DNA of 64,000 nucleotides from Erigeron canadensis (Eukaryota; Streptophyta; Magnoliopsida; Asterales; Asteraceae), in assembly GCF_010389155.1 (NCBI RefSeq), contig NC_057769.1, positions 15,872,735-15,936,734 of the forward strand, given 5' to 3'. The position numbers and the translations under genes are program-made. This document shows, one piece after another, positions 12,457-54,294 of this stretch. The notes below the pieces were generated by a model. That model ran no database searches, had not been told where the DNA came from, and saw only the letters and a program-made list of their open reading frames with translations. The first letter of the stretch is position 1, and every line of letters begins with the position of its first letter.

Positions 12457-15400
12457 TTAGAAGTAGTTGCTTTTATAGAAATGTTTGAGAAAGTTGGATA
12501 AGTTCTCATCCTTGGTGGCCACATCTTGAACAAGCCCATGATTACCCACCACATACTGCCCAATAATATGATGTCGTTGCTTCGCATGCTCTGTAATGTT
12601 ACTCAACTCTTCCATTCCCTTGAACAGCAGCATATCGATAACCTGCGGCAATCATCAACTGACTTAAAGTTATGCATCCATTAAAGTAATAGAAGTAGAA
12701 GTAACTCCCAATACCGTCTTCCACGGGTTTTGGGTCCCAATACCGTCTTCGACGGTGTACGAGGGAGGTTGATATGTAGACAGCCTTACCCCTACGAAAG
12801 GTAGAGAGGCTGCTTCCAGGTTCTACCATAGGTAGAAAAAGACCTCTAGCCTTGCTGGGCATGAGGATCGAACCCATGACCTGTGTTTCCAGATACATGA
12901 GTTTTGATGTAGAATCATAAGCTCATTCTTGAAAATTGCATTTAGAGTTTTTGCTTAATCCATAAACAATGACTTTATTCAACACATAAAACAAAGAATA
13001 CTACACTATATTTATCTGTCCAATAACTTTTTCTAGACAATCTTCGAGTAATAAAACAAACAGGCTGAGAAATAGTGATTGATGCACGATCATAAGCAAA
13101 GATGATAATGAGATTGCCGTTGACGAAATATAATAATAATGATGAGATCAACATATAGGTATATACATAGATAGAACACACTAAGCAATTAAAATAGTCA
13201 TTTATACTATATTATAAAGCAGATTTTCCCTATATTTTCAACATTGAACTTGAAATTTTAAATACTGATTTTAAGTACTTTCCCAAAAATGCCCTCCTAT
13301 CTATTCTATATTTATCTAAAATAACTATAATACCCTTTCTGTCTCCTCAAATCTCAACAAATCATCTTTTTTCTCTCTCCTCCATAAATCATTTATTCCT
13401 CCAATTCATTCAAAATCTTTTATCTCAAAAACCGTACATCGATAAATTATAAAAGTTGTATAGGTGTTTTTAAAATTTTATGTTTTTTCATTAAAGATGT
13501 CATTCCATATACTTTCGATAGATTTTTAAATCCGAGGGCGGAGCCCGTACTGCTAAGGCATTTGACTATCATACTCTATGACATATCAACTCCTATAACC
13601 TATCATACTCTATGACCTAGGTATCACCTCACCATCTCACCGCCGCAACGCGCGGGTACTTGCTCTATACAAATTTAATGTGTTTATATATTAAAATGTC
13701 CACCTATGCATTTAACATAAACATTTGGAGTGCTCGGAACAAAACTTATCCAGCGTGATGACCACCCCCACGACATGTTTCAGCGTCTCAAAGCTTTCCA
13801 GCCTCGGCGTGGTGGCTGGCGTGGCCGCAGCATCATGGTTATTACCATGTGTTTGTGTGTTAAGTATTATTTCTCATTACTAAATAGAAGTGTGATGCAG
13901 TAAAAAGTGATTTTGGGCAGCACTGATGTTACAATTTTTCCAGAGTGATGAGTTTTTCTAGATGTGCTTGTTACCAACTTCAACTTATCACCACTCTAAT
14001 TCTATACCAGCTTACCACCGCCCTATATTGTGACAACTGATTATGTAATGCATAGTAGGATTATAAAGTTAAAGGAAGTTTTTTTTTCTCCTTCATTCTT
14101 GCTAGCTGTTTCTAGAATGTCACGACAGTTGCTTTTCAGAATTTTCTAAGCCTTACAATTGATATACAAGTAACATATAGACCTTTTAAAACTTAATTCA
14201 AAGCTGAATCACTTGGTTTACTTACTACTACACCCAGTCACAACTTTTTCTATAACATGTTCTAGGAAAGGACAGCACTGGAGTTCTTCAGATAAACTAA
14301 TCTGTTGGAGCTTAAATAACTTAGACCAAATATGGAAGGGGCCAACATATGTTTAAAAAATGCAAATCATCCCTAAACCCTAGTGATAAACCCCCTAAAC
14401 ACTGAAGCTCTACAACTTTGATAGTCACTTATTCAGCACATGACTTCAACCTGTTACAATTTTTTCAATTGATATAACCTTAACGATTAACAGCACCATA
14501 TATTCTCTTCCTTTTCATATCTTTTGCTTCGCCAAACTTTCTTAGTACTTCGTAAATAATACATAACCTAAGTATCTTGAATCCTTATGTAATAAATATA
14601 TATAACCTAATATAAAGCTTTTAGAAATTAGCTACAGACCTACAGTACACTTTTTCTCTCCGACCAGGTAACAGAAATGCAATTAAGAGAAATAAAATGC
14701 CCGATCATAAATTTTATGATCTTTTTTTGTGAAAGAAATATATTCACATCCAATATTTTTTCCTCGATGGGGGATTTGAACTCACAAGCTCTTATTTGTT
14801 TGGGAGACTCAATACCACTAGGCCATATGCCCTTCAGTTATATGATCTATCACTAGTCATGGTGCACTCATTACATATTTATCCTCCTGATCTACTAGTT
14901 GATATGCTGCAACACAACCTAATAAAGTTCTCATAAGTTGCCTTGAGTAAAGCTAAATTTGGCAAATGCATTGGGTATTATTTGCATTTGTAATCTTTTT
15001 GGGGATATCACAAGATGTTCAATAATAATGATTGTTTGCATAGTAAAGACATGTTAGGGAACAATGATAAGATGCAAGTTAAACATTATGAATGATTTAG
15101 GGAACACGAAAAACATGCAACTTTGACAAGGGTAATATGTGAGCTTATATATATATATATATATATTATATAGGGAAAAGTGAATATAAGGCTGTCTGGC
15201 ACCTAAGCATAGGTGTGGAGCCCCTCACATACTAACTTTTTAATAGTTTTTGTTTAGTGAATAAATACTTGGGTCCCCATGAATTTTATGGATTAAAAAA
15301 CAAATATGTGTGTGCTACGCACCTAAGCTTAGGTACCTAATAGCCTTATATTATCATCCTATATAGTATATATATATATATATATTGTCAAAAGTGTAAG

Positions 15401-18400
15401 TGGGTGGGAACACCTTAATCCCATGTACCACATTGGGAACACCACTTAGCACACCACCCAAAGCGCACAAAAGCGAAAAGCGCAAAAGCGGCGAGCTTTA
15501 CGTACGCAAGGAGCACACTTATGAAGAAATTTTATAAATTATTTATATAGTATTTATAACACATAAAATACCAAAACAACATCGGTAAGATACTCGTTTA
15601 AGTCCAGCTTTGATCAAATTTGGTATTTGAAAAGAAATTCTCAAAAGATTGTTGTTCTCGTTGAGGAAAAAGAAAGTAGAGATCAATCTTGTTGAGAAAG
15701 AAGAGGTAAGAAAAAAAAATACTTATTTCTATAAAAAAAATCCTCTTGTATACAAAAAGCTCACGCTTTTTAGTGTCTAGGCTCACAAAAAAGGCCCAAA
15801 AACGCGCACTTTCTGTACACCGTGCGCCTTGAGTACCAAAAAGCTCCAAAGCTTGCGCCTAGGTGTGCCAAGCGCTTAAGGCGCGCTTTTTAAAACCAAG
15901 CTGCCCAATGAATCACCATCCTCACACATGGATCACAAATATAGTTCTCTATTCGCCTTTGGCAAGTTTCAATAACCGGTATATTTTGTCAACCCCGTAT
16001 GTTTGTGGGAACATGTGGTCACATGGTGGTGGTACCATTGGGCTATTGCCACTTTGGTGAACTTCATATATATATATATACTGAGTGACAGGAATATGTA
16101 ACTTGCGACACATTTACAAGCCTCTAGACGCTTGCTTTATATATTTAATATACCCATAATATCTTATTGGATAAGTTCATAGCCATATGATATTATCACC
16201 AATAAAGATACGCATAATCTAATGATGAAAATTAACATTCCAGTTTGTAATTTAAGTTCTTAGGCAGTTACTGTTAAAACTAAATGTCATAATTATGTCA
16301 TAAGGTTATTATGTTAATTTTGGTTGGTAACGTTACATATTTACTTTAGTTATGTGACATATTATTTGTCATTTAGAAATTAAGAATTGGTCTTTTATGT
16401 TTGACCGAGTAATCAGGGAGTAGTGGAGCCTTATTAGGACTTTAGGATTAGTGGGTTATCTGTTATGTACGTTGTATTTTCAGTTTTCATGTAATCAGAA
16501 AACTTAAGTAAAACACTCTATTCAAGAGTGTGTAAGTTATAATTCTGATTCAACAATTGGTATCAGAGCCGGTGAGATTCAAGGCCGGTTTGAGAGTCGT
16601 TTTTAGAGAAAGAGTGCAGCCCTTGGCTGCAGGGTAAAACGCAGCAGCATCAAAGAAGTAGTAGGAGCCCAGTTTTGGTTGATGGAACTGTGATGAATTG
16701 ATCACAGGTTGAAAAGACCAGAAGATAGCGATCCGGAGGTGGCTCGTGTCAATCGTTGTAGCAACTGTAGTACCGAGACAGGGAGACTGGTGAATATCGT
16801 TGTGACTCATGGCTGTTAGTACACCATGAAAGTAAAGAAAAAGAGAAAGTGCTAGCGGGTGTTGAAGCACGATCAATGTAGAAGACCAGAAACCGATCGC
16901 AGATGTGGGAGGATTCCGATTGAAGAAAAAGGCCAAGAATCTGATCGTGGCATAACCTAACGTGGTTTAACGTTTAGTGTGGTGTCCCGTGTGAAGTTGC
17001 TCTTGTAGTTGTGATAGTTGGTGTCGAGGAAGTGTAGTGTCCCTCGAGTTGCATAAAGAAAAAGTCAGGCTTTGTGTGTGTTTTATGGTATCGTTGCTGC
17101 TTTTGTCATTTTACCAGCATGAATGAAACGCGGTTGTTGCCTGATGGTGTTTCTGTCGTGTAGTGTGTGACTGCCCGGAAAGGAAACCCGCATAGAAGAA
17201 TTAGACCCTGCGAAGAAGAGTACATTGATGTGTGCGCCTGAGGTTTGGCTGAAAAGCATCATCTCCATCGTAACTCTATAACCTCTCTTTGTGTTTGTGT
17301 GTTGTCATATTGCAGAGTGTTGGTTCCAACTGCAACAGCATACTTTTTGTGAAAATGAGATGGAAGTCAAAGAGAGATGTAGTAAGTTAAATGTTGGATC
17401 TATATTTTATGTTGCAAGAGAGTGAGAAACAGTTCACGTAGGTACTATTCTCTGGTGTATGTGGAGATAAAGTAATAGACTTTACAAGAAAAGTGAAAGT
17501 AACCATGTGGAGGTGCAACCAATATGGTGATGGTACAAGAACTTAAATGGACCATTACTAACAATTTTTTGTAAAGTTTTATTTTTAATTGTGCAGATTT
17601 TCAACAAGTTAGAATCATCCAATATTAATGCACAAGCTTCAACGTATGAATGAAACTCCCGCAAGTTAGAAGAAATATTTACCTGTATGTGATTTTGTAT
17701 CACCGTGGAGTACGAAAAACAGCACAGAATAGACGAAGACAACGTGCCTGTTCAGGTCTGGTGTTGTCGTGGAAGATACGACATGTACCATTCAAGATGA
17801 CGGGGTTTACCACTTGACGGTGACGAACAAAGAAGGTTGTCTTGAGACTGTTTCAGGTTTGTTTTGTGGCTGTGTACGGGTTGTGTTTACAGCCCCGAGA
17901 AGCCTCTTTAAATGAGTCATTCAAAACAGAAGATGAAATGAACACCTGCAGTTGAGAATGTCACCGGGTTCGAAGTTCATATATGTGTTGTGTACTCCGT
18001 TTTGTGAAGATTGTTATTACTCCTCCGTGTATGATTGTGCATCACATTATTATCCGAATGTGTATCGGGATGGCTATGATCTCCGTGTGTCGGGGAGCTA
18101 TCATTGTTTGTCGGGATAGTCTAGTAGGTTGTTCGAAGGAAGGAAAACTCGTTCAAAAACGGTGATAAATGATCTGACAAGATCTTGGTAAACCGTTTGA
18201 AATATTCGGGTGTTGGAGTTTCCTTGTAGCTCGAGGATCACTTGAAGGACAGTTTGAGGGTCACTTGAAAGATTGTTTGAAAACCAGTGTGATTCAGCCA
18301 TATGTGAAAGACACTAAATGATGGGAGTGATAACCGTGGTATTTAGAGAGAGGTTTGAAAGAATCGGAGATTGGATGTCGAGAGGGAATGTTGAAATCGC

Positions 18401-21177
18401 CGAAGCATGTCAAGATCAAGAAAGTATGGATTATGACATTTAGAGAGGGTGTTAAAACTAAATGTCATAATTATGTCATAAGGTTATTATGTTAGTTTTG
18501 GTTGGCAACAGTTACATATTTACTTTAGTTATGTGACATATTATTTGTCATTTAGAAATTAAGAATTGGTCTTTTATGTTTGACCGAGTAATCAGGGAGT
18601 AGTGGAGCCTTATTAGGACTTTAGGATTAGTGGGTTATCTGTTATTTATGTACGTTGTATTTTCAGTTTTCATGTAATCAGAAAACTTAAGTAAAACACT
18701 CTATTCAAGAGTGTATAAGTTATAATTTTGATTCAACAGTTACGCCCCAAAAAGTGTTATTCCCACTCCATTGTAGTGCCTAAATCCACCATATTTACCA
18801 GCCATCCACAATTTGACATGCATCACCAGTCATAAGTGATATGAACAAAAACCACTAAGCAAATAAAGATTCACTAATAGTTCAGGCTAATCCATACGCA
18901 AAGATGTGAGCACACATCTGTATTTCATGATAGATGGTGCCATTTAAGTCCATTAAGTGATTACGTCACTGATGGAATGTTAAGAGATGCACAGATTGAC
19001 AAGAATGTAACTGTAAAGGAGATGATTCATAATGGTGAATGGACGTGGCCTGCAGATTGAGTGAAAGAGTTCCAGCATTGGGGATGCAAGCTGCACCAAA
19101 TCTGACTGATACGATGGTATGGTTGACTAATGCTGGAAATGAAGTAGATTTTTGAGTAGGATATGTGTGGAAAGACATTAGAGAAAACAATAATAGAGTT
19201 CATTGGGGTAAGATTTTGTGGTTTAGTCAATGCATTCCAAGTCATGCATTTATCTTATGGCTTGCCATGAAGGAAAGGTTACAAACACATGATAGAATGC
19301 TGAATTAGAATCATGCAGATTGCTATATGTGTACTTTATGTGGAAAGCAGAATGATTCATTGGAGCATCTTTTCTTTGGTTGTTATTACTCTGAATATAT
19401 TTGGAAGGAAATGAAAGAGCTTATGGAGGACCAAATGGCTCCCACAAAGTGGCAGGATGTTAAGGAATGGTTCTGCAAGAAGAGAATAACAATACTATAA
19501 AGAGTGTGGTTCAAAGATTATGCTTAGCAGCTTGTGTATATGTGATATGGAGGGAAAGAAATGCCAGGTTCTTTACTAAAACGCAAGTACCTAAAGAGAA
19601 GTTGCAAAAACAGATTGTGGATATTATCAAAAGCAGACTAGTGAGTTTGAAGTTTAAAGAAAGTAATGCTTATAGGGAATTAAAGAGGAGATGGAATTTC
19701 TAGCGGTGTCGGATGAGAAATTAATGGAGGGAAAGTAATGTTTTTAGATGTAATGTACATGGAATGCTTATATAGATGTGAATATATTAATAGGTGATAG
19801 TGACATAGTGTAGGTTTGGTGTATATATTGTAAAACTTGGAATTGTCCAAGTCTTTTCATTGATGAGTTGTAATATCTTTTTGAGGATGAATAAAAAAGA
19901 ATTTCAATTTTTTTATTTAAAAAAAAGAAAAGAAAAAGATAATTCATCAAATAGTCAACCCCATTCACTCTCTCAAAAGGCTACATGTATTTACAAAAAT
20001 AATAACCTTATTAGACAAAATTATATTTTAGCAATTGAAGAGAGGTTAACCATTAAGAATAGAATGCAGCTTTGGGGGTTAAGAACTAAGAAGTGAAGCG
20101 AAATGTGCCTTTGTAAGAATGGTATAGATCCTCATGATCATGTGTTCATTTGCTGCAATCTTGCTAGAAAAGTATGAGTGAAAAACATGGTAATGGGCAG
20201 ACTAGAGAGTGTTATTAGCAAAGTTTTGTCCCCAATAAGTAACTGGCAATATGTATGTGTCTTTTGCCTGCAAATAAATCTGTCTGGGGTTTCATCCAAT
20301 GCCTTTTATTTGTCAAGAAAGGAATTCTAAATTACTTATGGAGAGGGAGGTCTGCAGGTGCATTGGTGTATTAAGGAGAGTTTGGTAATAGCGTATGAAG
20401 GTTGCTGCTTTAGCACAAGAGAAATGTTGGAATGCCGCGGCTTAAGATTTAGGCAGGCTTCTGATATACAGTTTAAACGACTTGAAGTTTGATGGTGTTT
20501 ATATTGCGTTATAGAGTATAAATATAATAGAATCTCTTCACCTTAGGTATCATGTTTAAACTTGTTGTGAAGATATTATGTGGTAAATTGTAAAAGATAT
20601 AGTTTGGTTTCCATGTTATCTGAATCCCCAAAGCATGTTTTGGGAGCACCATTGATTTAGAGATGGGTATGCCCATTATAACTTCTGTCGATATTTTTTA
20701 CGCGCTTCAAAGGTTTATCAGGTCAAAATACTTTGTCGTGGAAGCAATCATTTTAAGTGATTCAAAAATTTATCAGGTCTTCCCCAAAACCCTATTAGAG
20801 CAACATGAATAATACAAAACCCACCCACATATAATAGTAATAATAATACCAAAGCTATTTACTTAAAAATGAATAAATTGATTGATTAAAATAATGATAA
20901 TAATAATAAAATAAAAAATAAAAGAGAACAGAAAAGGAAAGGAAAGATCTAGATAGAAAGATGATACCTTAGGGTTGGTGATATGGGCGTTCTTGCGGAT
21001 TTCAGCAGCAATAGTGGAACGAAGCTGAGAAGGGTTAGCGACGTCGTATAGGTTGTAAATTTCCATGATAGCAGGAATAGATCGGCATGCTGCTTTGAAG
21101 AAATCGAATGTTTTACTTCTTGCTTCTTGTAGATTCGCTGAATTTGGGGCTACTTTCACTCTCATTGCAAACGCCAT
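12457..21177 (-). CDS. NDUFA6: NADH dehydrogenase 1 alpha subcomplex subunit 6 (B14); exons 20968-21177 and 12457-12642
   Basis: This is an accessory subunit of mitochondrial complex I (LYR-motif family), which sits on the matrix arm. Exon 1 encodes 70 residues starting MAFAMRVKVAPNSANLQEAR and ending AHITNPK. Exon 2 encodes 61 residues starting VIDMLLFKGMEEL and ending in FYKSNYF and TAA. Together they give 131 residues, the usual plant length. The intron is phase 0: exon 1 ends AAG before GTATCATC, and exon 2 follows TTGCCGCAG. At the family LYR position the protein has FFK, as far as I can align it from memory. Both exons are open with no damage despite an 8.3-kb intron full of transposons, arguing for a working gene. 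The start is the only in-frame ATG before conserved sequence. No typical N-terminal targeting sequence is obvious. Confidence 0.88.
12680..12900 (-). mobile_element. SINE, 5'-truncated, beside the NDUFA6 splice acceptor
   Basis: The minus strand carries CATGGGTTCGATCCTCATG, holding a Pol III B-box (GGTTCGATCC). A body typical of a widespread plant SINE follows: GGTAGAACCTGGAAGCAGCC, then two GACGGTATTGGGA repeats and a T-rich end near 12690. No clear A-box is seen, so the head is cut. Exact ends are uncertain and no TSD was found. Confidence 0.6.
13203..13668 (+). mobile_element. Small non-autonomous Helitron-like element
   Basis: The left end TATACTATATTATAAAGC matches the usual plant Helitron start apart from the first bases. 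The right end has the GC-rich hairpin CCGCCGCAACGCGCGG followed about 10 bp later by CTCTAT, close to the CTRR terminus. No TSD is expected for this class. About 465 bp, AT-rich interior, no helicase. Confidence 0.55.
14723..14840 (-). mobile_element. tRNA-headed SINE with 8-bp TSD
   Basis: On the minus strand the head contains TGGCCTAGTGGT (A-box) and GTTCAAATCCC (B-box) about 35 bp apart. It ends in an A-rich tail (plus-strand T7 at 14722-14728). TATGATCT occurs directly on both sides (14715-14722 and 14841-14848), a convincing TSD. It lies in the NDUFA6 intron in the sense orientation of the gene. Confidence 0.8.
15168..15366. mobile_element. MITE with ~48-bp inverted ends
   Basis: The left end TATATAGGGAAAAGTGAATA, continuing through ATAAGGCTGTCTGGCACCTAAGC, is mirrored by the right end (minus strand TATATAGGATGATAATATAA, continuing to ACCTAAGCTTAGGTG). 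It sits inside a long TA microsatellite on both sides, compatible with insertion at TA. About 200 bp, no coding capacity. Confidence 0.65.
15455..15895. repeat. GCGC-rich segment, possible non-autonomous transposon
   Basis: GCGCACAAAAGCGAAAAGCG at the left and GCGCTTAAGGCGCGCTTTTT at the right bracket an AT-rich interior. Such AAGCGC / GCGCTT borders occur in plant non-autonomous elements. I could not find a convincing TIR pairing or TSD. Confidence 0.3.
16272..16555 (+). repeat. 5' LTR of the non-autonomous element
   Basis: 284 bp, TGTTAAAACT...TTCAACA, followed two bases later by the primer binding site. Confidence 0.9.
18450..18738 (+). repeat. 3' LTR of the non-autonomous element
   Basis: 289 bp, directly after a purine tract, followed by TSD GTTAC. 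Confidence 0.9.
18936..19703 (+). pseudogene. LINE remnant: zinc-binding RT tail (zf-RVT-like)
   Basis: Translation around 18936-19050 gives LSPLSDYVTDGMLRDAQID and then GEWTWPAD. At 19165-19420 it gives VHWGKILWFSQCIPSHAFIL, then CYMCTLCGKQNDSLEHLFFG. From 19500 it gives VIWRERNARFF. This is the ordered signature of the zinc-binding region after the reverse transcriptase in plant LINEs. At least three in-frame stops (after WPAD, at 19303 and near 19497) and frame changes show it is dead. It is 5'-truncated, as LINE copies usually are. An A-rich tract at about 19918-19940 may be its tail. Confidence 0.7.
20020..20520 (+). pseudogene. Second LINE remnant (zf-RVT-like)
   Basis: The frame near 20026-20095 reads LAIEERLTIKNRMQLWGLRT, then after a stop MCLCKNGIDPHDHVFICCN. 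This is the same zinc-binding pattern (C-x2-C, H-x-H, C) as in the neighbouring remnant but from a different copy. Multiple stops. The extent past 20270 is uncertain. Confidence 0.55.
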
Positions 21178-21235: not shown

Positions 21236-21589
21236 GAAAAAAGTGGAGGAGACCGAACAAGTCTGTTGGCTTAGTTAACTTTTCTTTTACCGTTTCAAAA
21301 ATGTCCTTTTAATCATTAAGCGGTTAAAATTATAAATATGGTGTTAAATTATAAATTTTATCTATGAAAGGGTATTAGTGTTAATTAGAAAATTTGTATA
21401 TATACCCCCATAACAACATTTGTAATAAGCTTTTCACATAAGGTCTAAGTGCGTCAGAATGCAGTCAACTAATCACCAAAAGTTATTGTATGTACGAACT
21501 CTAGGTCGGCTTTATTGTATCCAGGAAACTTGAAATTATGTTTATAGTGAACATAAAAAGGATGTGAAACCGGTTACTTCACATAAAAC

Positions 21590-21871
21590 TTGTTTATTTT
21601 CATATTTCCCTCACCATCGCCTGCCACTGTCACCCTACGCCGGAGCACCACACCACAACACCACCATCAGTTGTCATCACCTAAACCACCCTTGGAAACC
21701 CTAAACAAACTATGTTTCTTCTCTTTTCGATTTGGACTGCCGCGAAAGACCACCAGCAGCCACCGAACCACCACACATGCTACCACCACTTGGGTTACTG
21801 AATTTGGGACCAAAACAACAGAAAAGTCATGTGGGTGTGATTGTTGGAGTATTAAGTGGGTTTCGATTTAA
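21590..21871 (+). other. Possible captured host sequence inside the MULE
   Basis: An open stretch rich in P, T and H codons has a base composition unlike the surrounding DNA. It contains ACCCTAAAC-type words common in plant leaders. I do not recognise a protein, and the low complexity argues against a real CDS. Confidence 0.2.
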
Positions 21872-22008
21872 GAATAGATCTATAAAATATATATATATAT
21901 ATATATATATTATTTCAAGATCTGTATACATATATATTGATAGAGAAAAGAAAAAACATATAATAAAAGTACTGAAAACGGAGTGGAAAGGCCGTCGTCG
22001 ACGAAACC

Positions 22009-22023
22009 GGGGGGGGGGGGGGG
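22009..22023. repeat. Poly-G tract (G15)
   Basis: Uninterrupted G run inside the MULE. Confidence 0.9.
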
Positions 22024-22489
22024 CGTAAAGGTTGAAGCCGGCAGTAAGGAAAACGGAGTTCATTGCAAAAACGATTTTATCAAAAATTTGAAATTAGGTT
22101 TTGAAGCCTTAATTAATGCTAATACTGATTGTTCGGTTGCCATTGCGAGTAGAGATACCACGAATGATGGTCGGTAAAGAGTTGGGATGGATGGATTAAT
22201 TTCTTGTTGTCAAAGTTGGAATATGTTCATCATATGTCCAGGTGAGTTTTCAATTAATTTATTGTGTGCGTAAATTAATCCCAAAAAGTTATTGTGTGCA
22301 TGTCAAGTAAGCAGTCAATGGGTCAACGTGAAAGTGGTGACCGGCTAACTTCTTACCCAGTAAACTTTTGTTTACTTTGGGACTCTTGAACAAGTTTCCT
22401 GATTACAATAAAGCCGACCTAGAGTTCGTGCACACAATAACTTTTGGTGATTAGTTGACTGCATTCCGGCACACTTAGCCCTTTCACAT

Positions 22490-24474: not shown

Positions 24475-25921
24475 TTAGCACGAGTTATATACTGATGTGT
24501 GCATAAGCCATTTTTCATCAAATAACTTCAAAATTACCTTTAGAACCCATTTGAGATTGAATCCAATGGTTTTTGAACTCTTGAAAGACCAAATGTAAGT
24601 GTCATCGATTTGATAAATTGATGTTGCATTCCAGAAAAAACTAAAATCCGGTGTTTTAGTTGAAAAGATTTTTCGTAGAAGCAACGGTGAAAAATCATTT
24701 GATTTCTTCGATAAACTTGCAATCTTGGGAGATTGATTTGAAAAATGATTTTTCGAAACAAAATCATTCACCTTTTGCACAACTGCTTTCGCAGGTTTCA
24801 GTGCAGTTTAAAAAGTTCAGAGAAAGAATATTTGAATGATTTTGACTTAGTTGACTTAGATTTAGAAATCGGTTTCCATTTTGATTTTGTCACTGAGATT
24901 TGGCTTGCGAAATATGTTCAGAATTATCCTCGAAGGATAGAAAAGAGACAAAAGTAGTTGTTCCATTAAAATTTGGTTTCTTAGTGTACATCTTACCCTT
25001 TTGCAATGAGTAATTAGTAAACTGAGAGACCTTTCTTTCAAATTTCAAAAGGTTTTGAAGATTTACTTGTGTAAACCCTCTTTGGAACATCAACTTTAGG
25101 TTTAGTTTGACAACATGTTTTTGGTTTGGAAACGGTTTCATCAACTTCACATTCAATTTGCACAAAGGAATTAACAACTTCCCATTCAGTTTGCACAGAG
25201 GAATTCACAACTTCACATATAGGACTATCAGTTTGAATGCAAACTTTAACAACTTCACATACAGAACAATCAGTTTGAGTGCAAACTTTAACAACTTCTT
25301 TGGATGAGTCAGAAGAGACAGAACAAGGATTTTGAGTATAAAAAGATTTGTTTTGTGTTTGCAATTCACTCTTAAGGTCAAAAATTTTCTTTGTCAAAGA
25401 TGTTCCGTTTGACTGAAGTTGCAAACACTTCTTTTCAAGACACTTAAATTGAGCACAAAAATTAGATCTTTCTTCTTCAGCTTTCTTCTCAAAAATGATT
25501 GAATTCTTTTGGAATTCGTGTTGAAGCTTAGAAATCTGTTGTGTCCAAATAAGTTCTTTTGATTGATTGTCTAAAACAATTTTGTTGAGCTCTTTTGAAG
25601 AATTGTCCAACGCATTTGTTAATTTGGAAATCTTTGAATGCAAATGATCATTTTCTTTTTGAAGACTTTCCATGTTTGACAAAATGAGATCATTCGCAGA
25701 TTTGAGCTCTTTGTTTTCAGATTTGAATTTGTCAATTTCAAGTTGAAAACTTTTGTGTTGTTCAATGAGTTTTTGACTCTTCTCATACATGAATCGTTTT
25801 TCTTGAAATGAATGACAGCACATAGAACATGTTTTTCGAAAAACTTGGGATTAAAAGTACATGTATAACGACAATAGTCATGATCATATAATTCATCCCA
25901 TGTGGGTTCTTGAATGAACAT
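24475..25921 (-). pseudogene. Decayed copia-type gag-pol segment with long coiled coil
   Basis: From 25921 the minus strand reads MFIQEPTWDELYDHDYCRYT, and after a frame change (open 25038-25823) a 261-residue stretch. Its first ~165 residues are a heptad-rich coiled coil (EIDKFKSENKELKSANDLIL and onward), and its last part has V-x-T-Q-T-x-C repeats. A further piece at 24475-24780 reads IYQIDDTYIWSFKSSKTIGF. I recall similar coiled-coil spacers between gag and protease in plant copia polyproteins. No RT, integrase or protease motif survives. The family is an inference. Confidence 0.4.
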
Positions 25922-26295
25922 AGTGTAAGTCCCTCGGGTCTTGTACTTCTATCGAACCGAGATTGACTTAAGGATATGTTGAGGTGCGGAAATTCCTCGA
26001 GATAACCCACAGTTTTTATATCAACCTTTAGATGATATATATAACACTATATATATATATATATATCTTTTTGCATGAATATAAACACTCGGGGGAACAG
26101 CTCTCCGGACGCACCTTACCAAACACATGGTAATCTGCAGTCTACGAGCCGTTCGGGGGCCTGGTGTGTGTTTTCGGTTCGTTACGAGACGAGTATTACA
26201 CACAAGACAAACTATGCGTGTTCTTAGTTTTCCCTTTCTAGGATTTGCTCGTTTCTCTCTCTACACTCTTGTTGAGACATGCATGAAAATACACC

Positions 26296-26307
26296 CATAT
26301 ATATAGG
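26296..26307 (-). promoter_or_regulatory. TATA-like box of the minus-strand LTR relic
   Basis: CCTATATATATGGG on the minus strand lies between the upstream hairpin arrays and a leader-like sequence (GTGTAGAGAGAGAAACGAGC). This arrangement suggests U3-TATA-R of an LTR feeding the coding relic below 25921. Confidence 0.4.
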
Positions 26308-26408
26308 CGCGGCTAGGAACACGCAAACCTTGATGGGTTTTGCGTGTTTCTTTAGGCCCAAGCCTAGGGTTTTGGCCTATTTGCGCGTTTCCCTGAACAC
26401 ACAAACCG

Positions 26409-26584
26409 TTTGAGAGTTCTTGTGGTCAAACATACTTTTGCTTGTTTCCACATAAACTCTCAAACCATTTGAGAGTTCTTATGAACAAGCATACTTTTGT
26501 TTGTTTTTTAGAAACTCTCAAATGACCATTTGAGTGTTCTTATTTGAACAAGCAAACATTTGCTCATTCCTAAGAACTCTCAAA
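26409..26584. repeat. Array of three ~56-bp hairpins (type A)
   Basis: Three consecutive units (26409-26464, 26468-26522, 26529-26584) each begin TTTGAGAGTT (TTTGAGTGTT in the third) and end AACTCTCAAA, so each folds on itself. Loops contain AACAAGCATACTTTTG-like sequence. The spacing is about 60 bp. Confidence 0.85.
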
Positions 26585-26606
26585 TAACACTTAGGATATG
26601 TTGAGT

Positions 26607-26936
26607 TAATGTCTTTACTGCTGTCAAGACGTAGAACCGACATTACACTCAGAGTTAATATCTTTACTGCTGTCAAGACGCAGAACCGACATTAACTCAC
26701 TAATGTTTTGACTGCTGTAAATATACGCAGAAACAACATTAGCTTTCAACAATATTTCTACTGCTGTGAATATGCAGAAACAACGTCGTCTATATTACCT
26801 ATTGGAAGCGTATATATAAGATAATATTTATCCTGCTGTTAATACGCAGAAACACAATTATCTTAACTTCCCTTTGGAAGTACATTAAGTTAATGAATCA
26901 ACTGCTGTTAAACGCAGAAACAATATTAACTTAATG
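26607..26936. repeat. Array of six hairpins with shared CTGC...GCAG core (type B)
   Basis: Each unit has a core CTGCTGT(4-9 nt)GCAGAA flanked by outer arms that differ between units yet pair within a unit: TAATGTC/GACATTA (26607-26645), GAGTTAAT/ATTAACTC (26652-26698), TAATGTT/AACATTA (26701-26741), AAGATAAT/ATTATCTT (26818-26864), CATTAAGTTAAT/ATTAACTTAATG (26883-26936). The unit near 26750-26790 keeps the core but its outer arms have decayed. Confidence 0.85.
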
Positions 26937-27474
26937 ACTCTTTACATGTTATGTCAAAAACCTGCAAAGTACAAATAATAAATAAACATATAAACATAAA
27001 AGGATCCCAATTGGATCAAGAATATATGCCAAGGTAATATTATTGACAAACGGTAATTACAAGAAAATTACAAGACTTGAATATATAAACAAATATACTT
27101 CACATATCTAGAATGCTCATGTCACTGTGAATCATGCACTAACACAATCGTCAACTTATCTGGCACATTGAACTTTATTGACTCAAAATTTTACGAAATC
27201 TGATACGAAGAAATAATCGATTTCAAATCATTAATGTCAGACACAAAACATGCACGCCCTTCGCAAAGAACTTTAAATCTCTTGGAAACATCCTCAAACT
27301 CTTGATACACTCGAACAACACAAGCATGATTATTTCCTTGAAAACATGAACACTTTTGACTATTATGAAAATTATATAAACCAAAGCTTGGTTCAACTTT
27401 GATTGTTTTGGATGACATCTTGTCTAAAAACTTGATAACGATCTAACAAAAGAATAACCCAAGAAAAGTACTCT

Positions 27475-32234: not shown

Positions 32235-32345
32235 TGGGGTCTTATTTTGAAAATACGAGGTCACAAATGAAATACGAGGTCGTATTTGAAATACGAGGTC
32301 ACAAATGAAATACGAGGTCGCATTTGAAATACGAGGTCACAAACT
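32235..32345. repeat. Tandem repeat of GAAATACGAGGTC units
   Basis: Five to six copies of AAATACGAGGTC alternate with ACAAATG and GCATTTG spacers. The right-hand contig after the gap begins inside the same repeat (49155). Confidence 0.8.
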
Positions 32346-33356
32346 GACGGTGTCGTAAACTGGGCTGTTCTTCCCCAAAATTCATTCTAGAAAACCCTAA
32401 TCGTTTATTTCGATCTGAAAGGTGTTTTTAACATCAGATTGTACTTTTTGTAACACCCCAAAAATTTTAAGGTAAAAGAAATTAACCCCTTTTTATAGTT
32501 TTGATATTAAATTAATTTCCTAGTATATTGTTTTTAGTTATGGGGTTAATTTAGTTGGAACTTTAACGGATAGCGGGTAAAAATACCCATAAAAAGAGAA
32601 GAGGGCGTGGCAAACCCCTGATGTGCCAGCCATCTCCCTTGTGATAAATCACTCTTCCACCCATTATCTTCTTCTTCCTCAATCTCTACATGCATTTCAT
32701 ATCATTTTCTCTCAAAAATCAAGCTAAATTCCTTCAAATTCAAGGATAAGAAATAACCATAATAATCATCACCATCAAATAATCTTTATTCAGGAATTAA
32801 AAAGTTAGGGTTTGTGGGTTGTGGTGGTGGTCGAAACTTTAAGAGGAAAAAAGGGAAGAATTTGTGAATTTAAAACCCTAATCTATTGTCTTCCATTGTT
32901 GAGGTATTGATTTCCCCTAATTTAGTTTTTATCTTTTCTTTGAAATTAGGGTTCATGGATGAACCAAATTGGGGGTTTTGCTAGAATGTGAATTATGGTT
33001 AATTTTTCCCAATTCTGTAGATAACCTAGTTGTCATTGACTTATATGATGTGTTTGATTATGAAATTGATAAGTTCATGTGATAATTTGAGTTTATGAGA
33101 AAAGATGAGTTTTCTAGTTATTGAAATGATGATGAAAATGGTAGGTTGAACTACCTTTTGTGATTGTTGGAAATGAAAGTAATTGAATGACAAATGGGTT
33201 AGGTTGGGTTTAGAAGGGCTAGTGATTATGGCTAGGTTGAGCTAGTCAAGATTTTGAAGCCTTTTGTCCATGGTGGTTTTGACCATTTCATGTTGAAGTT
33301 TGTAAATCCATGTGTGGTAATTGATGTGGCATGAGCCCATGTGGGGTATTGTGTTT

Positions 33357-33445
33357 ATGAGGCCTAAGAACCTCCGGGGCCTAAGAATCCCGATAGTTGA
33401 TATATTATGAGGCCTAAGAACCTCTGGGGCCGAAGAATCCCGATA
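33357..33445. repeat. Direct duplication inside the gypsy LTR
   Basis: Two ~39-bp copies of ATGAGGCCTAAGAACCTC(C/T)G through AATCCCGATA, separated by about 12 bp. Also present in the right copy (about 50195-50282). Confidence 0.8.
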
Positions 33446-34095
33446 AATGTGATTGTTATGATTGTTTAGCTTATATAGATCCATATATGTGTTTTTAGTG
33501 TGCAAGGTGAACATGTAAATGTGACATGACGGTGCCATAGGTTACATGTAAAAGTCCATGTACTTTGCCCTCCTTCGTATTCGTAAATGTATGCAAGTAT
33601 ATTCACTAAGCCTTTGCTTATATTTTAGTTGTTTACCCTTTTATAGGTAGTTCCGGAAGAAGGAACTAGTGAGTCGATTTGAAAGAGTTGAATAGAGCTT
33701 GAAGTTGACTTTTGCAAGACATTTGAAGGTATTAGGTCATTCTTGGATGAATTACACACTTTTGGTTTAGAGGCTTAGAAATCCCTCTCCTCATGGCTCT
33801 TAGTATATTCTGATTTGTTGGTCATGCTTTTGTTAAAATTGTATAAATGATCAAGTGTAAAGTTTTAGCAAATTGTGAAGTTGCATTTTGGACGAAAATA
33901 GCATCAAAATGGGTAAATGACCCATTGATGGTATTCATGGGTTTTGAAACTAGTTGATGTTGTAAATTTGTTCAAAATGTGTCTATATTGTTCTTGGTCA
34001 TCTTTGAAATGTGTTTTATGAAGTTCATGTTGAAATGAGAAGGTTGTAAGCTTGTTCAAGTGTTGAAATGATTTAGGGTTGCTGATCAGGTGGCT

Positions 34096-34289
34096 CACTG
34101 CGGCGCAGTGGGGGTGGTTTTGCCCACTGCGACGCAGTGGAATACCACATAAAGTTTTTGGCTTTCTCTCACTGCGGCGCAGTGGGAGGGTGTATAACCC
34201 ACTGCGGCGCAGTTGTACAGTTTCCCATTTTATTTCGAGGCTTTCCACTGCAGCACAGTGGAGAGTGCTCAACCCATTGCGGCGCAGTG
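34096..34289. repeat. Six palindromes CACTGCGGCGCAGTG in three ~75-bp units
   Basis: Palindromes start at 34096, 34125, 34170, 34200, 34246 and 34275, giving alternating spacings of 29, 45, 30, 46, 29. That is three tandem units of two palindromes each. Variants are CACTGCGACGCAGTG, CACTGCAGCACAGTG and CATTGCGGCGCAGTG. They lie just before the LTR end and are repeated in the right copy (50920-51110). Confidence 0.85.
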
Positions 34290-34343
34290 GGGTATAATTT
34301 TTTTTTTTGTATTTTCGGTTTTATCGAGTCAAGTCCTTTCAAG

Positions 34344-34357
34344 TTGGTATCAAAGCC
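34344..34357 (+). other. Primer binding site of the gypsy element
   Basis: TTGGTATCAAAGCC, near-complement of the 3' end of tRNA-Met, two bases after the LTR. The right copy is at 51163-51176. Confidence 0.7.
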
Positions 34358-34670
34358 GAGGTTTAAGGGATTTAGGTATTCCCTCGTGTAGAGAGTGCCT
34401 AGACTTAAACCTTAGTTGAGACTCGACCTTAGGTGACCGAAATTTTATATGGGGCTAAAAGAGGCGTTTGATGATGATAGTTCATCCACTTGCTAGTATT
34501 TAAAGCACAATAAGAAGCCGGCCTTATTGTGGTTGAAGTACTAACAAATGTATAAACTAACGGCATCAAAACTTGAGACGGTTTTTAATGAAGTTCTAGG
34601 TTTTGGCCTTTTAGTTCGTAAGGAGAAATAGATTGCGCGTTTAAATCAGCTTGTTTACTCTTATTATAGC

Positions 34671-36463
34671 ATGGCCGATCATCATAATGACGAAGATGAG
34701 CACCATAGACAAAATGAGGAAGAAGGGCCCATGTTTGACGAGGATAGCATGGATATATCAGATCAAATTGGGAGAGCTTTGGAAAAGTACACTCCTGTTT
34801 TACTCAAACGGTTGAATGCAACATTTGAAGGAGCAATGAATGATCACATTGCTCAAATGATCAAAGAAGAAGTTGCGAATAATGTGCAACGAGAGTTTGA
34901 AAAGCGGGATGCCAAGGATAAAGGCAAAGAGACTAAGGAGGAGAAAGAGGTGGAGGTAACGGGAGAGAGAATTTACAAGAAAAAGTTCACCTTTCGAGAT
35001 TTTGAAGTGTGCCACCCACCCAATTTTTTTGGTGACCGTGATCCCATCACTTGTACTTGGTGGATATCGGAAATTAAATGGGCATTTCGCACTAGTCAAT
35101 GCCCTGAACATTTGAAGGTCATATTTGCGGTAGGTATGCTAAGGAACGGTGGGAATAAATGGTGGGAGGGATTGATGGCCATCAAGAAGGGGGCTCTAGA
35201 TAATATGAAATGACCCGATTTTAAGGCGATGTTCTTCAAGGAATTTCGGTCGGAGGCCGAAGTAACGAAGTTGAGACGTCAATTTCTAAATGATTGTCAA
35301 GGCAACATGAGCTTGAACGAATTTCGAGCCCAATTCTTGGACAAGGCTCAATTTTGTCCGGAATTTCTTGAAAATGACCACTTGCTTAAGGAGCAATTTT
35401 ATTTGAAGTTGAGGAAGAATCTTCGGGAGAAGATTAGCTTGCGTCAAATGGAGTCTTTCTCCATGTTGGCGGATGTGGCCCGGGATCATGAAATTGAGAT
35501 GTCGAGGGTTGATGAAGGTGTTTTGAAAAAAAGGTATGAAGATGTAAATTCTCCAAGCAAGCGGCCTAGACAAGAGGGTAGTTCCGGTAACCACTCAAAT
35601 AGAAGAAATATTCCTTTTTGCCGCCAATGCAAGAAGAATCATTCCGGGGTATGTAGGGCGGCAGATAAGGGCTGTTATACTTGTGGGAAGCCGGGGCACA
35701 CTAGTCGAGAATGTAGGTCTAAACCTCAAAAACCCATTATATGCTTCAAATGCTTTGAGGAGGGTCATATGAGATCCTCGTGCCCTAAGTTGACCGAGGA
35801 GGAGAGACTCGAAGAAAGAAGGAGGGAGACGGAGAGGAAGAACACCCAAGTTCATGGAAACCCACGTGGAAGATCTTTTCAACTCACGGTGGAGCAGGCA
35901 AGAGACACGGATGATGTTGTCACAGGTACATTTCTTGTATATAATGTGCCTATGCGAATTCTCTTTGATTCGGGGGCGAATAGATCATTTGTTGCAACTA
36001 GACTAATTCATGTTATTCCCGTGTCTAAGTCATGTCTAGAAAATACTTTGCAAGTTGAGGTTGGTAATGGTAGGATGGAATTAGTGAAGGATGTGTATAA
36101 ATGGTGTGAAATCAAAATTTCTTCGGAATTCTTCCAAGCTAATCTAAATCCTTTTCCAATGGGAGAGTTTGACATAACCTTGGGTATGGATTGGTTGAGC
36201 TCTTGTAACGCCAAGATCGCGTGTGATGAAAAAGCGGTATATTTGAAGACTTCTAAGGGCGAAGACTTGGTGGTTTACGGTGATAGGAAAGAACGTTCAA
36301 TATCCGTGTGTACTTTTGCTCGTGCCAAACGTTACATATCTCATGGATGTCATGCTTATCTTGCTCAAATCGTAGATGTCGAGAAGCAACCCCTGTCTAT
36401 CGAAGACATCCTTATTGTTAATGAATTCGCTGATGTTTTTCCCGAAGACTTGTTGGGCATTCC
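34671..36463 (+). pseudogene. Ty3/gypsy gag-protease, interrupted by a copia element (left copy)
   Basis: The ATG at 34671 opens an acidic N-terminus (MADHHNDEDEHHRQNEEE), then the retrotransposon gag core (W-W-I-S...K-W-W-E-G). An in-frame TGA stands at 35211-35213, in a place where the family has a tryptophan. The frame then continues to the copia insertion. Two zinc knuckles follow: CYTCGKPGHTSREC and CFKCFEEGHMRSSC. Next is an aspartic protease with active site DSGA in RILFDSGANRSFV, and the last gypsy residues read DVFPEDLLGIP. RT, RNase H and integrase would follow beyond the insertion and are not in the window. The TGA is in both copies, so it is real. Confidence 0.85.
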
Positions 36464-37439
36464 TGTTAGGTCCAGTTTAAGCTATAAACTGGAGCTCTCC
36501 AGCGGCATCTGGAGAGCATGAAGAATTGTCCGAAATATTAGAAGTCCAGTTGCATTGTACAGTTTAAGCAACTAATGACTTCCTCCAGTTGAGATCTGAA
36601 GACTAGAATCTGAAGACCTTCCAGTTGAAGTCGAAGACAACAAATGGAAGACAGAGATTGGCAATGGCAGCGAAGCCCAGTTGACAATCTACCAGATCAA
36701 TCAACTGGAGAATCCTCCAGTGTAAATGCTCTTACAAAGCTTTACACTGATCACAAGGACGACCTTTTACACTACATCCTTTTAACCGGACAATAATCTT
36801 GTCTATGGATAAAAGTGCAAAGATGTAGAGTGGTTGAATAAAGTAACCTTTTGTCTTACTTTATTTAGCACACACAAAGGATTATTTAACAATACTTTTA
36901 TGTGCTGTCAACCATATTTGTACGTCGAAGTTGAGATCCCAATGCTCATACTTCGACTATAAATAGAGGTCCTTGCACAAGCATTTTCACAACTTTGCAA
37001 ATACATACATTCTACAATATTGGTGAACTTGTGTAATATTCTCTCAATCGCAAAAAGGAACATTTCACAACTTTAAGTGTTTCGATTGTTTAGGAGAATT
37101 TCCAAGTTTAGATCAATTGTATTTCATGGGTTGTTAGGATATTTACATTCTTGTATTATCTTGGTTTCGCAACAACCTTGTATTTTATTTAAACAATTAA
37201 TAAATAAAATACACTTGAAAAATACATATTGTCTCACCAATTTATATACTTGTCATTTATATTATTGCATTGTATTTACTTACTCAGTCTGTCACCTTAA
37301 TAAGTTTACCTCCAGTTAACCTGGTACACAATCAATCTAAACTAGTCAAGTCCAGGTTAATTGATTGTGTTGCAAAGTTCACTCACCATTGACATAGAGG
37401 TGTCTTCAGCACCCATCTAGCAATAGTTGGGGACTAATA
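36464..37439 (+). repeat. 5' LTR of the copia element (left copy)
   Basis: 976 bp, TGTTAGGTCC...GGACTAATA. The terminus is TG...TA instead of TG...CA, that is CTAATA where CTAACA would mirror TGTTAG. A TATA-like CTATAAATAG lies near 36957. The right copy has the same length. Confidence 0.85.
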
Positions 37440-37441
37440 AG

Positions 37442-37453
37442 TGGTATTAGAGC
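37442..37453 (+). other. Primer binding site of the copia element
   Basis: TGGTATTAGAGC, one mismatch from the initiator tRNA-Met complement TGGTATCAGAGC, two bases after the LTR. The right copy is at 54239-54250. Confidence 0.8.
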
Positions 37454-37497
37454 AGGCAGGTTGAATTGTTTCAATTCTATAACCTAGGTCTGCTTTG

Positions 37498-39602
37498 ATG
37501 GTTGCTGAAGGTGAGAATGGTTCTGGTCCAAATGAATCTAATCCTAATGTTACAACTCCTTTAAATACTAACCCTCCTCCAGATCCTGGAGCTAACCATG
37601 TCCATGTACATTACTCCAACACTCCTGTTCCCAAATTCGATGGGAATGGTGAGACCTTTGGTACATGGAAAGCTAGAATGCTCTTGCATTTTGGTGGGAT
37701 AGAGAGGTATATGTTGAAAATCTTTAAGGATGGACCATATATACCCATGTCCAGTGGTGTTAGCCCTCTTCTCAACCCTACTGGGAGAAGAGGCACCAGG
37801 GAAAAGTCTGAGGAACATTGGTCAGACGAGGATCGCAGACTGGTTGATCTTGATACCAGACTGAAAAACATGATACTTGCTGCTGTTCCTAAGGAACTAA
37901 TTCCAACACTTGTGCTGTTTCCCAGTGCTAAATCTATGTGGGATGAATTAGTTCTCCAGTTTGAAGGAGGAAATGACACCATTGTCACCAGAAAGGTTGC
38001 TCTTAACAAGAAGTATGAATCCTTCTTTGCTCTTCCCAATGAAAGCTTAACTGGTACTTACACCAGATTTACTGGCCTGATTAATCAACTTAGAGGCTTA
38101 GGAGTGGAGAAGGATAAGGATATTCTTCTTGAGAAATTCTGTGATGCCTTGCCATCCAAATGGGCACACATGGTTCTTGTCTTAAGACAAGGTAAGACCT
38201 TGCACAGCCATACTCTTGCTTCCCTTTATGGAGCCTTCAGATTCACTGAAGATAATGATGCTGCAAAAATTTGCTGAGCAAGATGCTTTAAACCATGCTC
38301 AGAGTTCCAAGGTTGCCAACCTTACTGGGCAACCTTGTGCTGCTTTAATGTCTGCTGAGAATGTCCAGTTACATTCTATGAAGGAGATGTTAAACAACTT
38401 ACTGAACTCTGGCCTAACCACAAATCTAAGTAATGGTTGTGAGGAAACTGACGATGATGATTTGGTAGCCATGATTGCTAAAACCTTTAATAGGTTCAAG
38501 CATAAATCCAATCGATTTAATGGGTCCAATAATGCTTCCAGTTCAAATTCTCTGGATAAGGCCAATCTTATCTGCTACAAATGTGGTAAGAAAGGTCACT
38601 TCATGAAGGAATGCAGATCTAGTCAGATGAACAACCAAACTGGTCCTGTTGTCCCAAATTTTGTTAAAACTGATGATTATAAGGCCAAATATAAGAAACT
38701 AAAGGCCCAGATTGCTCTCATGTCTCTTGAACAAGAAAAAGAGAAAGAAAAGAACAAATGCATGATGACTCAAACTGAAGGGAAATGGGAACTCTCTGAT
38801 GATTCATCTGATGATGAGGAAGAGATTAGAGATATGTGTTTCATGGCATTAGAAAATCAACAACCAGTGGTGAAAGATGATGTTGTTTCTGGAAGATGGG
38901 TGGACATCATTTTAAAGAAGGTAAGAGATTATGATGTGAGTTAGATACAGAACTAAAACTGGATATTGCTGAATCATTGAATGATGACCCGTTATTTGTT
39001 GAAACCATGAGAACTGACTGTGAAAGATACTTGGAAACAGTTTTGGTTGAGTTTAACAACATGAAAGGTCAAATAAATGATTTGCAAAGTGTCCAGTTGG
39101 CTTTCAAAGAGTCAGATTTGAAAAATGAGGCATTGGAAAGAGATAACCAAAACTAAAATTTGATCTTGAAAAGGAACACATGGTTATCAATTCTTGGGTA
39201 CAAGCATCTGGTAAAATTTATGACGCTTTTTCAAAAACCATTGATGCTCAAAAAACTACCTGGAAATCTGGTGATCTTCAGATGGCAGCTGTTTTACCCA
39301 CAATTCACCAAATGCCAGAATCTGTTAGAGTTGAAACTCCTTATGACTCCTCTGACCCTACCAAATCTGAATCTATTGAGACCAACCCTGTTGAGGTCAA
39401 AACCAAGAAGGCTAAAGCTCCAGTTAAAAAGGAATCTGGTGACATTCCTCTACCTCACAAGTCCAATGAGTCCAAAACTCAAAAGACTAAAACCCCGCTG
39501 AACCCAAGTCTATGGCCAGCAGCCTGATGAGAAAAACATTTTGTTAAAAATGGAGAATCAACTCCAAAATTTGTCAAGGCAGGTACAAAGTTGTACTGCC
39601 TG
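37498..39602 (+). pseudogene. copia gag, left copy (frameshifted)
   Basis: It has the same protein as the right copy (gag core with PKFDGNGETFGTWKARMLL, zinc knuckle CYKCGKKGHFMKEC, then a coiled-coil extension). It is broken by single-base losses near 38269, 38937, 39152, 39497 and 39512 relative to the right copy. It begins at ATG 37498; the N-terminal part is intact here, whereas the right copy has a break near 54428. It ends at a TGA shared by both copies. Confidence 0.75.
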
Positions 39603-42600: not shown

Positions 42601-43234
42601 GATGTATTTAACTGCCAGTCGACCAGATATTATGTTTGCAACATGTCTATGTGCCAGATTTCAGGCTAATCCAAAAGAATCACATTTGCATGCTGTTAAA
42701 CGCATTTTCAGGTACCTGAAAGGGTGCCCTAGCCTTGGTTTTTGTATCCCAAAGGCTCAGGGTTAGATCTAATGGGTTATTCAGATTCAGATCATGCAGG
42801 TTGTAAGATTGATAGAAAATCCACAACTGGTGGATGTCACTTCCTGGGGGAAAACTGGTGAGTTGGACCAGTAAGAAGCAGACTTCGGTCTCAATGTCTA
42901 CTGCTGAGGCAGAATACATTTCTGCGGCCAGTTGCTGTGCCCAGATTCTCTGGATCAAAAACCAGTTACTTGATTATGGTATGAAATACACAAGAACCCC
43001 AATTTTTGTGACAATACCAGTGCAATTGCTATATCTCACAACCCAGTGATGCACTCAAAGACAAAGCATATTGACATCAGGTATCACTTCATTCGTGATC
43101 ATGTTATGAAAGGAGACATTGAAATACATTTCATCCCCACTGATAAACAGTTAGCTGATGTCTTTACAAAACCTCTTGATGAGAAAACTTTTAAACATCT
43201 CATCAGTGAACTGGGTATGTTAAATCCTCATTAA
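39603..43234 (+). pseudogene. copia protease-integrase-RT-RNase H, left copy (frameshifted)
   Basis: It carries the same domains as the right copy. The integrase-to-linker stretch (open 40411-41685) is intact here across a site where the right copy has lost two bases. RT and RNase H are broken by losses near 41642, 42107, 42371, 42512, 42742, 42845 and 43008. It ends at the TAA after GMLNPH. Confidence 0.8.
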
Positions 43235-43525
43235 ACTGGAGAGGCCCTCCAGTTGAGGATGGTCCAGGTGATCCTTGATTGGTTGGAGATTGAACGCCTT
43301 GATGTACTCAAAGACTAGTCATTGATCAAATGGATCATATTTTTAGGGGAAAAGACTCAAAATATTTTTCCAATTAAAATTCGTTTTATTTTGAAAAATG
43401 CAACTGAGAGTCATCAGTTGAAACTGGCATCTGGAAAATCTCTCCAGTTGCTAGTTTGGTCTTGTCTTAAACTGGTGGTCAACCAGATTTCATAACGTTA
43501 TGTTTTACTTGGTGGATACTTGTGA

Positions 43526-47683: not shown

Positions 47684-47953
47684 GTTTTCCTTCTATCTAT
47701 CTGCTTGTAATTTGCTTACTTTCTTGTAACTTCATTGTAAAGTTGTGTATATACAAGTTGCCAGATTGTAACTCACAAGTTAGATATCTGATAAGATCTA
47801 CAAACAATTAAAACTATACCCAAGGCATTTGATGATCTATAAAAATGTCTTGGAAACTTAATAGGTTTTATCAAACTCAAGTATTTCAAACTTTACTTGT
47901 ATAGAAACAAGTTTGAAAATACTTGGCAATATTTCAGGACAATTAGGGGAATT

Positions 47954-54236: not shown

Positions 54237-54294
54237 AGTGGTATTAGAGCAGGCAGGTTGAATTGTTTCAATTCTATAACCTAGGTCTGCTTTG

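Follow-up and report, generated by a model that had tools for sequence, protein, structure and literature searches.

A hairpin array in a Sirevirus-type LTR of Erigeron canadensis, probably kept foldable by natural selection

At positions 26603–26936 of a 64-kb stretch of Erigeron canadensis DNA (hereafter “the window”, i.e., all 64,000 nucleotides analyzed), six units share a short core, and their outer arms vary from one unit to the next yet pair within each unit. What keeps such arms complementary? The initial annotation of this locus offered two answers: selection for the fold, or a mechanism that copies one arm onto the other. Arms that are unit-specific and co-changing are informative in this respect, since they let selection on a fold be separated from selection on a binding sequence, with dead copies serving as a neutral yardstick. 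Based on the comparison of 43 arrays described below, natural selection probably keeps these hairpins foldable.

Hairpin units in two arrays

All six units of this array (array A) lie on the minus strand, and were delimited from arm pairing together with an alignment of 43 copies: unit 1 at 26603–26650, unit 2 at 26652–26698, unit 3 at 26700–26742, unit 5 at 26817–26865, and unit 6 at 26883–26936, with unit 4, decayed in the window copy, placed at 26748–26790 by arm scoring and the same alignment. Their CTGCTGT...G[C/T]AG cores start at 26618, 26667, 26712, 26761, 26833, and 26902. CTGCTGT occurs eight times on the plus strand and once on the minus strand of the 64-kb window, and six of these occurrences belong to array A. 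Each unit spans 43–54 bp and is built from outer arms, an internal loop, and an inner CTGC/GCAG stem, the arms being 25–31 nt apart.

Six CTGCTGT...GCAG hairpins had been proposed at this place. Six units are indeed there, and five show the full pattern; unit 1 has GTAG instead, and unit 4 is not Watson–Crick paired in the window copy. For units 1, 2, 3, 5, and 6, the outer arms pair over 8–12 bp by Watson–Crick rules within the unit, and the arms quoted as examples were all found (GAGTTAAT/ATTAACTC, AAGATAAT/ATTATCTT, and the perfect 12-bp outer arm of unit 6, CATTAAGTTAAT/ATTAACTTAATG). The description of arms that differ between units and still pair within them is thus accurate for these five units, and inaccurate for unit 4 of the window copy, where the score of the unit’s own arms (5.0) was reached by 1341–2352 of 5000 shuffles and where folding on the minus strand depends on wobbles. 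Across most copies, unit 4 forms a nine-position stem that includes two A.C positions on the plus strand (36/42 and 41/43 copies), which become G-U wobbles when the minus (sense) strand is read. In the window copy there are two further transitions, of which one recurs in 3 other copies and the second is private, and we read these two mispairs as decay.

Left arms match their own right arms best. When right arms were permuted among units, a sum at least as high as the observed one arose in 2, 2, and 5 of the 720 arrangements (identity included) for local alignments with three flank lengths, and in 9 and 6 of the 720 for a fixed ungapped register; leaving out the near-duplicate unit 1 or 2 and the decayed unit 4, it arose in 2–3 of 24. 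One component is shared across units, namely TAAT/ATTA, which is constant in five units and stands at the same distance from the core.

Array A also folds strongly, with z-scores of −7.6 (minus strand) and −6.2 (plus strand) and none of 100 shuffles as stable, although array A alone is not extreme among 846 300-nt windows drawn from the two strands of the 64 kb (it ranks 13th and 24th at best on the minus strand, and 120th and 174th on the plus strand). A second array on the minus strand (array B, 26402–26587), which the initial annotation had not mentioned, consists of three longer hairpins whose arms center on TTTGAGAGTT/AACTCTCAAA; its folding z-score is −9.35, and the stretch holding array B together with units 1–2 ranks first of the 846 folding windows. 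The greater stability of the sense fold (4/4 copies) was considered as a sign of selection at the RNA level and rejected, since this strand bias is partly compositional and shuffles are biased alike.

The LTR and the element it comes from

The initial annotation had placed the array upstream of a TATA-like box in a minus-strand LTR relic, likened to SIRE-type elements, and each part of this description was borne out. Window positions 25924–27144 form, on the minus strand, a complete 1221-bp solo LTR (TGTTAG...TTACA, with TG..CA ends), the borders of which are common to other genomic copies. Counted along the LTR, array A occupies positions 209–542 and array B positions 558–743, with the TATA-like box CTATATATA downstream at 839–847 (window 26298–26306, minus strand), so that nine hairpin units, six of type A and three of type B, lie between the LTR start and the TATA box. 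This box is present in 15 of 16 further LTR copies examined (11 exact, 4 with one mismatch). A sequence CTCAACATATCCT(T)AAG was seen by eye twice on the minus strand of the LTR, at 26588–26604 (between arrays A and B) and at 25967–25985 (near the LTR end).

Copies were sought with a 501-base query over the array in the 426-Mb assembly (356 contigs, with the window on contig C9). This yielded 344 first-look candidates, and the best 40 of the 344 were scored, namely the window and 39 others, all near full length and at 89–93% identity; 9.9 kb was fetched around 20 of these 39 other copies, and ~0.8 kb at the remaining 19. The most divergent copy collected (78% identity) is in L016. Among the 20 longer fetches, 13 span both LTR borders and diverge beyond them (one of the 13 stops 32 bp short), and the other seven have the 27144 border and are broken off or interrupted at 26215–26438. 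Five of the 20 (L019, L020, L025, L026, and L031) end near the TATA box (26298), at window equivalents 26291–26341, and in L019 the LTR of another element starts at this break. Insertions or breaks may favor this point, or there may be a subfamily whose downstream half is different. As for the window copy, it is neither preceded by a PPT nor followed by a PBS, and it shows no clear 5-bp target duplication (GATTG/CTATG); no LTR partner for 25924–27144 was found inside the 64-kb window. Lacking junction motifs and an evident 5-bp duplication, this dead copy is either a solo LTR or a piece of a rearranged element.

Sirevirus junctions, as given in the excerpted text of Bousios et al. 2010 (PMC2829016), comprise a AGGGGGAG PPT, several PPT copies near the 3′ LTR, and CA-ATTGG-TATCAGAGC after the 5′ LTR. 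Six long-fetched copies, including the reversed L016, have this PPT or a near-form before the LTR: it stands exactly 10 bp upstream of the 3′ LTR in two of the six (L030 and L016rev), and is one base off or one base short in L018, L021, L023, and L015. Extra exact copies of AGGGGGAG occur at −512 to −532 in four copies and at −663 and −664 in two (L030: −663, −525, and −10; L016rev: −664, −532, and −10; L018: −512 and −2909; L023: −531 and −2335), with no exact extra one in L021, a single one at −3873 in L015, and no antisense AGGGGGAG in the copies checked. At the 5′ LTR junction, L022 reads CA-ACTGG-TATCAGAGC, one spacer base off the Sirevirus motif, and the PBS or a mutated form of it follows the LTR in seven copies (L022 and, mutated, L014, L016, L021, L023, L027, and L033). 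A gag domain was detected beside 5′ LTR copies (Retrotran_gag_2, E 5.2e-7, above the cut-off in L014 and below it in L027), and L027 further displayed Pol_BBD above the cut-off and zf-CCHC just below it, in an odd domain order that may mean a nested element. No RT was found in the pieces scanned. Overall, the junction motifs support a high-copy, putatively Sirevirus-type Ty1/copia retrotransposon, with which the copia-type gag pieces would agree, and the SIRE-type label is upheld by the PPT at −10, the PPT repeats, and the PBS of the best-preserved copies. Upstream of the 3′ LTR of L030, long open frames were observed at 7131–7934 and 5990–6577 (minus), the second being coiled-coil-like by eye, with no Pfam match; they may resemble the envelope-like ORF of some Sireviruses.

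Whether the array is one of the repeated palindromes reported for these elements had been left open. In the passages of PMC2829016 that deal with them, Sirevirus palindrome repeats (RMs) begin 200–400 bp from the LTR start and ahead of the TATA box, have a consensus of 10–20 bp, are mostly >85% alike, and lie in CpG islands; a CGG-CCG core is present in 12 of the 13 RMs of Table 3 in that paper, Tnd-1 being the one without it. The elements described there and the one studied here are alike in their palindrome repeats (here at LTR 209–542) with a TATA box downstream, their AGGGGGAG PPTs, and their TATCAGAGC PBS, and they are unlike in that array A consists of 43–54 bp hairpins with a CTGC/GCAG inner stem and unit-specific outer arms at 34% GC. 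The suggested link therefore stands for the place in the LTR and not for the motif: the CGG-CCG core is absent from the array units, which makes the array not an RM in the strict sense, and neither array A (GC 0.338, CpG o/e 1.06) nor array B (GC 0.328, CpG o/e 0.21) qualifies as a CpG island. Box I of Tnt1, named in the same paper, is another symmetric box in a plant LTR regulatory region, likened here by description only. What is known from the portions of this literature cited here is the Sirevirus palindrome array upstream of the TATA box, and what appears to be new is long hairpins with unit-specific arms; among titles and abstract beginnings of the open-licence literature, which leaves most subscription journals outside, no report of co-varying arms in LTR hairpins was found.

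Arm changes among copies and how they may be read

To compare arm changes between copies, we aligned 43 arrays, i.e., the window copy and 42 from the 39 fetched stretches (three of which hold two), skipping matches under about 330 bases. Changes seen in a single copy (singletons) were taken as an estimate of post-insertion mutation, and changes seen in at least 3 copies as mostly inherited from active elements. A/T columns were used, as these are spared C-to-T noise, and shared changes and singletons were compared by counting per column, given that cell-wise Fisher tests on A/T cells count related copies repeatedly. Singletons per A/T column were alike throughout (outer arms 0.47, array B stems 0.49, unpaired columns 0.52 in array A and 0.53 in array B). 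Shared changes at A/T columns numbered 2 in 83 for the outer arms and 0 in 37 for the array B stems, versus 19 in 122 and 13 in 86 for the unpaired columns of arrays A and B, respectively (shared vs singleton: p = 0.011 for array A alone, p = 0.0004 with array B pooled). The two outer-arm exceptions are 26607, which is compensated, and 26935, which is one-sided and found in 6 copies. Because A/T singleton rates are alike in arms and unpaired columns, a lower mutation rate would not be the cause; the A/T result points to purifying selection on the outer arms during the active life of the element.

Arms and unpaired columns did not differ significantly at G/C positions (p = 0.37). By this measure the inner CTGC/GCAG stem shows no conservation, with 23 shared G/C changes in 36 columns vs 20 in 48 unpaired columns. 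Changes at C/G in array copies are mostly C>T or G>A, so that recurrent decay can pass for shared change at these columns; it may explain the shared changes of the inner stem, where C>T and G>A make up 92 of 122 changes at CHG sites.

The 43 arrays form two subfamilies (I, n = 13 including the window; II, n = 30), split by one branch (96/86) in a tree built without the stem columns, the bootstrap of which is not fully settled. Between them, differences present at ≥75% in each subfamily amount to 13 substitutions, 10 of these in array A, and one indel. They touch stems at two places. The unit-3 pair 26706–26736 is T-A in 13 copies and C-G in 30, with zero intermediates. For unit 1, 26607 forms a T-A pair with 26645 in subfamily I, leaving a bulged C (12 copies), and, shifted by one, an A-T pair with 26646 in subfamily II, leaving a bulged G (28 copies); three copies are odd, and two of these still pair. 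These are the only stem differences that separate the subfamilies, and among the 43 arrays there are no one-sided stem differences at the 75% level. With random placement of the 10 array-A substitutions, two nominal partner pairs are both hit at p = 0.0013, at least one complementary pair arises at 0.022, and two complementary pairs arise at 1.6e-4, the last value being valid only if the shifted unit-1 re-pairing is counted as complementary. The other states look derived, one event each, because the divergent copy L016_1980 carries the T-A states. Two coupled events on a single branch, one of them by shifted register, would make covariation alone a thin argument.

Individual copies display a different pattern. 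Among 2567 arm cells, 182 are changed on one side, 17 are double-changed and paired, and 29 are double-changed and unpaired in the nominal register; the unit-3 pair accounts for 13 of the 17, the unit-1 re-pairing for 28 of the 29, and the two A.C columns of unit 4 for 78 of the 182. With the unit-1 pair left out, 4 of 59 arm pairs carry any double change, no higher than in slid controls (2–6), and there are 16 double cells in the true register vs 2–6 in the slid ones; pairing itself reaches 92.8% in the true register vs 18–34% when slid, for stems that were chosen for pairing. The proposal that arms change together is thus sustained at the lineage level, through the two coupled changes between subfamilies, the permutation test, and the few shared outer-arm changes, and is not sustained within single dead copies, where one-sided changes prevail and the pair count is no higher than in the slid controls. 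A unique array, or arms mutating independently in other copies, had been named in advance as arguments against covariation: the array proved not to be unique, post-insertion arm mutation is one-sided, and subfamily-level stem changes are coupled.

On balance, we think that, as long as the element was active, selection preserved the folding of these hairpins as a cis-regulatory module in the U3 of a Sirevirus-type LTR. The array region would be the cis-regulatory half (U3) of the LTR, and in the active element selection would have held each unit to fold on itself. The folding molecule could be sense RNA, whose genomic form includes U3 at its 3′ end, and/or single-stranded or extruded promoter DNA, reverse-transcription intermediates being a further candidate, and the hairpins would belong to a module controlling the transcription or handling of the element’s RNA. 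After insertion, copies would decay by ordinary mutation, mostly C-to-T at C/G sites. A more specific version, which we hold to be somewhat less likely than not, is that U3 hairpins were directly selected for folding as RNA or single-strand DNA, in which case arms would drift freely as long as they pair with themselves, G-U on the sense strand being tolerated. If true, covariation would here attest to a structured element under selection in the promoter region of an LTR, and Sirevirus palindromes would owe their maintenance to the fold and not to binding alone. Maize Sirevirus palindrome arrays are hotspots of small-RNA mapping, according to the portions cited of PMC5311732 and PMC10760457, and why copia elements such as Sireviruses retain structured LTR regions that attract small RNAs is presented as an open conjecture in the relevant part of the latter.

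The low number of lineage-level arm changes, the coupled changes, and the unit-specific yet pairing arms point to a fold rather than a fixed binding sequence. Nevertheless, the few arm changes could stem from sequence-specific binding instead, and the constancy of TAAT/ATTA in five units may leave room for binding as well as folding. We thus weighed the alternative that the units are dyad-symmetric transcription-factor sites in double-stranded DNA, with two half-sites (TAAT/ATTA arms and CTGC/GCAG core) and a hairpin that never forms, which we regard as rather unlikely. The location upstream of the TATA box and the fixed distance of TAAT/ATTA from the core fit such sites, as does the discussion, in the sections of PMC2829016 concerned, of Sirevirus RMs as regulatory boxes holding mainly sites for stress-related factors. 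However, half-sites have no evident reason to co-change, or to differ between units while remaining complementary, and neither the two near-fixed wobble positions of unit 4 nor arms 25–31 nt apart are what a binding site would lead one to expect.

Copying of one arm onto the other, i.e., template switching at quasi-palindromes, would co-change arms without selection, and could account for a unit-3 change that left no intermediate in 43 copies. Yeast quasi-palindromes are likewise imperfect inverted repeats whose arms can gain identity, and mutation of this kind is known there to extend it (PMC3820800). Yet template switching as described there predicts perfect arms, whereas neither bulges nor internal loops were lost here: a bulge that copying should have removed is still present after the unit-1 change, and next to the unit-3 change the internal loop stayed unpaired, when copying should have lengthened the perfect stem. 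Arm copying, one of the two mechanisms initially put forward, is thus not supported, and appears improbable because bulge and internal loop survived the coupled changes; it would also leave the scarcity of shared arm changes unexplained, and besides the 13 cells of the unit-3 pair only 4 arm cells are double-changed and paired. Chance and shared descent, with two fortuitously matching substitutions in AT-rich repeats, seem very improbable, since the few events, the equally many double-change pairs in slid controls, the weak permutation without near-duplicate units (2–3 of 24), and the 13th rank of array A alone for folding in the window have to be set against a folding z-score of −7.6, 2 of 720 permutations, a p of 0.0013 for both partner pairs being hit, and the depletion of shared changes.

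Neighborhood of the LTR in the window

The solo LTR is flanked by open frames at 25038–25850 (270 aa, coiled-coil-like) and 27191–27442 (minus strand, 83 aa, no Pfam match), and may sit inside an unknown gene or element. The frame at 25038–25850 was considered as the gag of the element and rejected, since it lies outside the LTR border at 25924; it gave nothing above the Pfam cut-off, and no match in PDB, plasmid, and protein searches. Also set aside were 5 matches of the core pattern (17 specified bases) in viral contigs, judged to be at chance level by a rough estimate.

Further along the window, a Ty1/copia element with gag, zinc knuckle, integrase, and RT pieces occupies 36464–48785 on the plus strand, with LTRs near 36464–37302 and 47954–48785 that are alignable over about 840 bp and 98% alike. 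A search of one of these LTRs and the linker for hairpin arrays found none. This plus-strand copia LTR also stands beside several fetched copies of the solo-LTR family. Positions 32289–47138 and 49155–63997 match each other at 98.4% over 14.9 kb. As the second stretch begins right after a 100-N gap (49055–49154), an uncollapsed haplotype or an assembly overlap seems likelier than a tandem duplication. A short non-autonomous LTR element is suggested at 16272–18738 by a 289-bp direct repeat (97%, ~2.2 kb apart) with a perfect TGGTATCAGAGC site two bases past its first copy. Finally, MITE-like inverted-repeat pairs were observed at 15147–15385 (98 nt at 80%) and 21440–22483 (93 nt at 91%), the first of which folds almost as strongly as the hairpin arrays.
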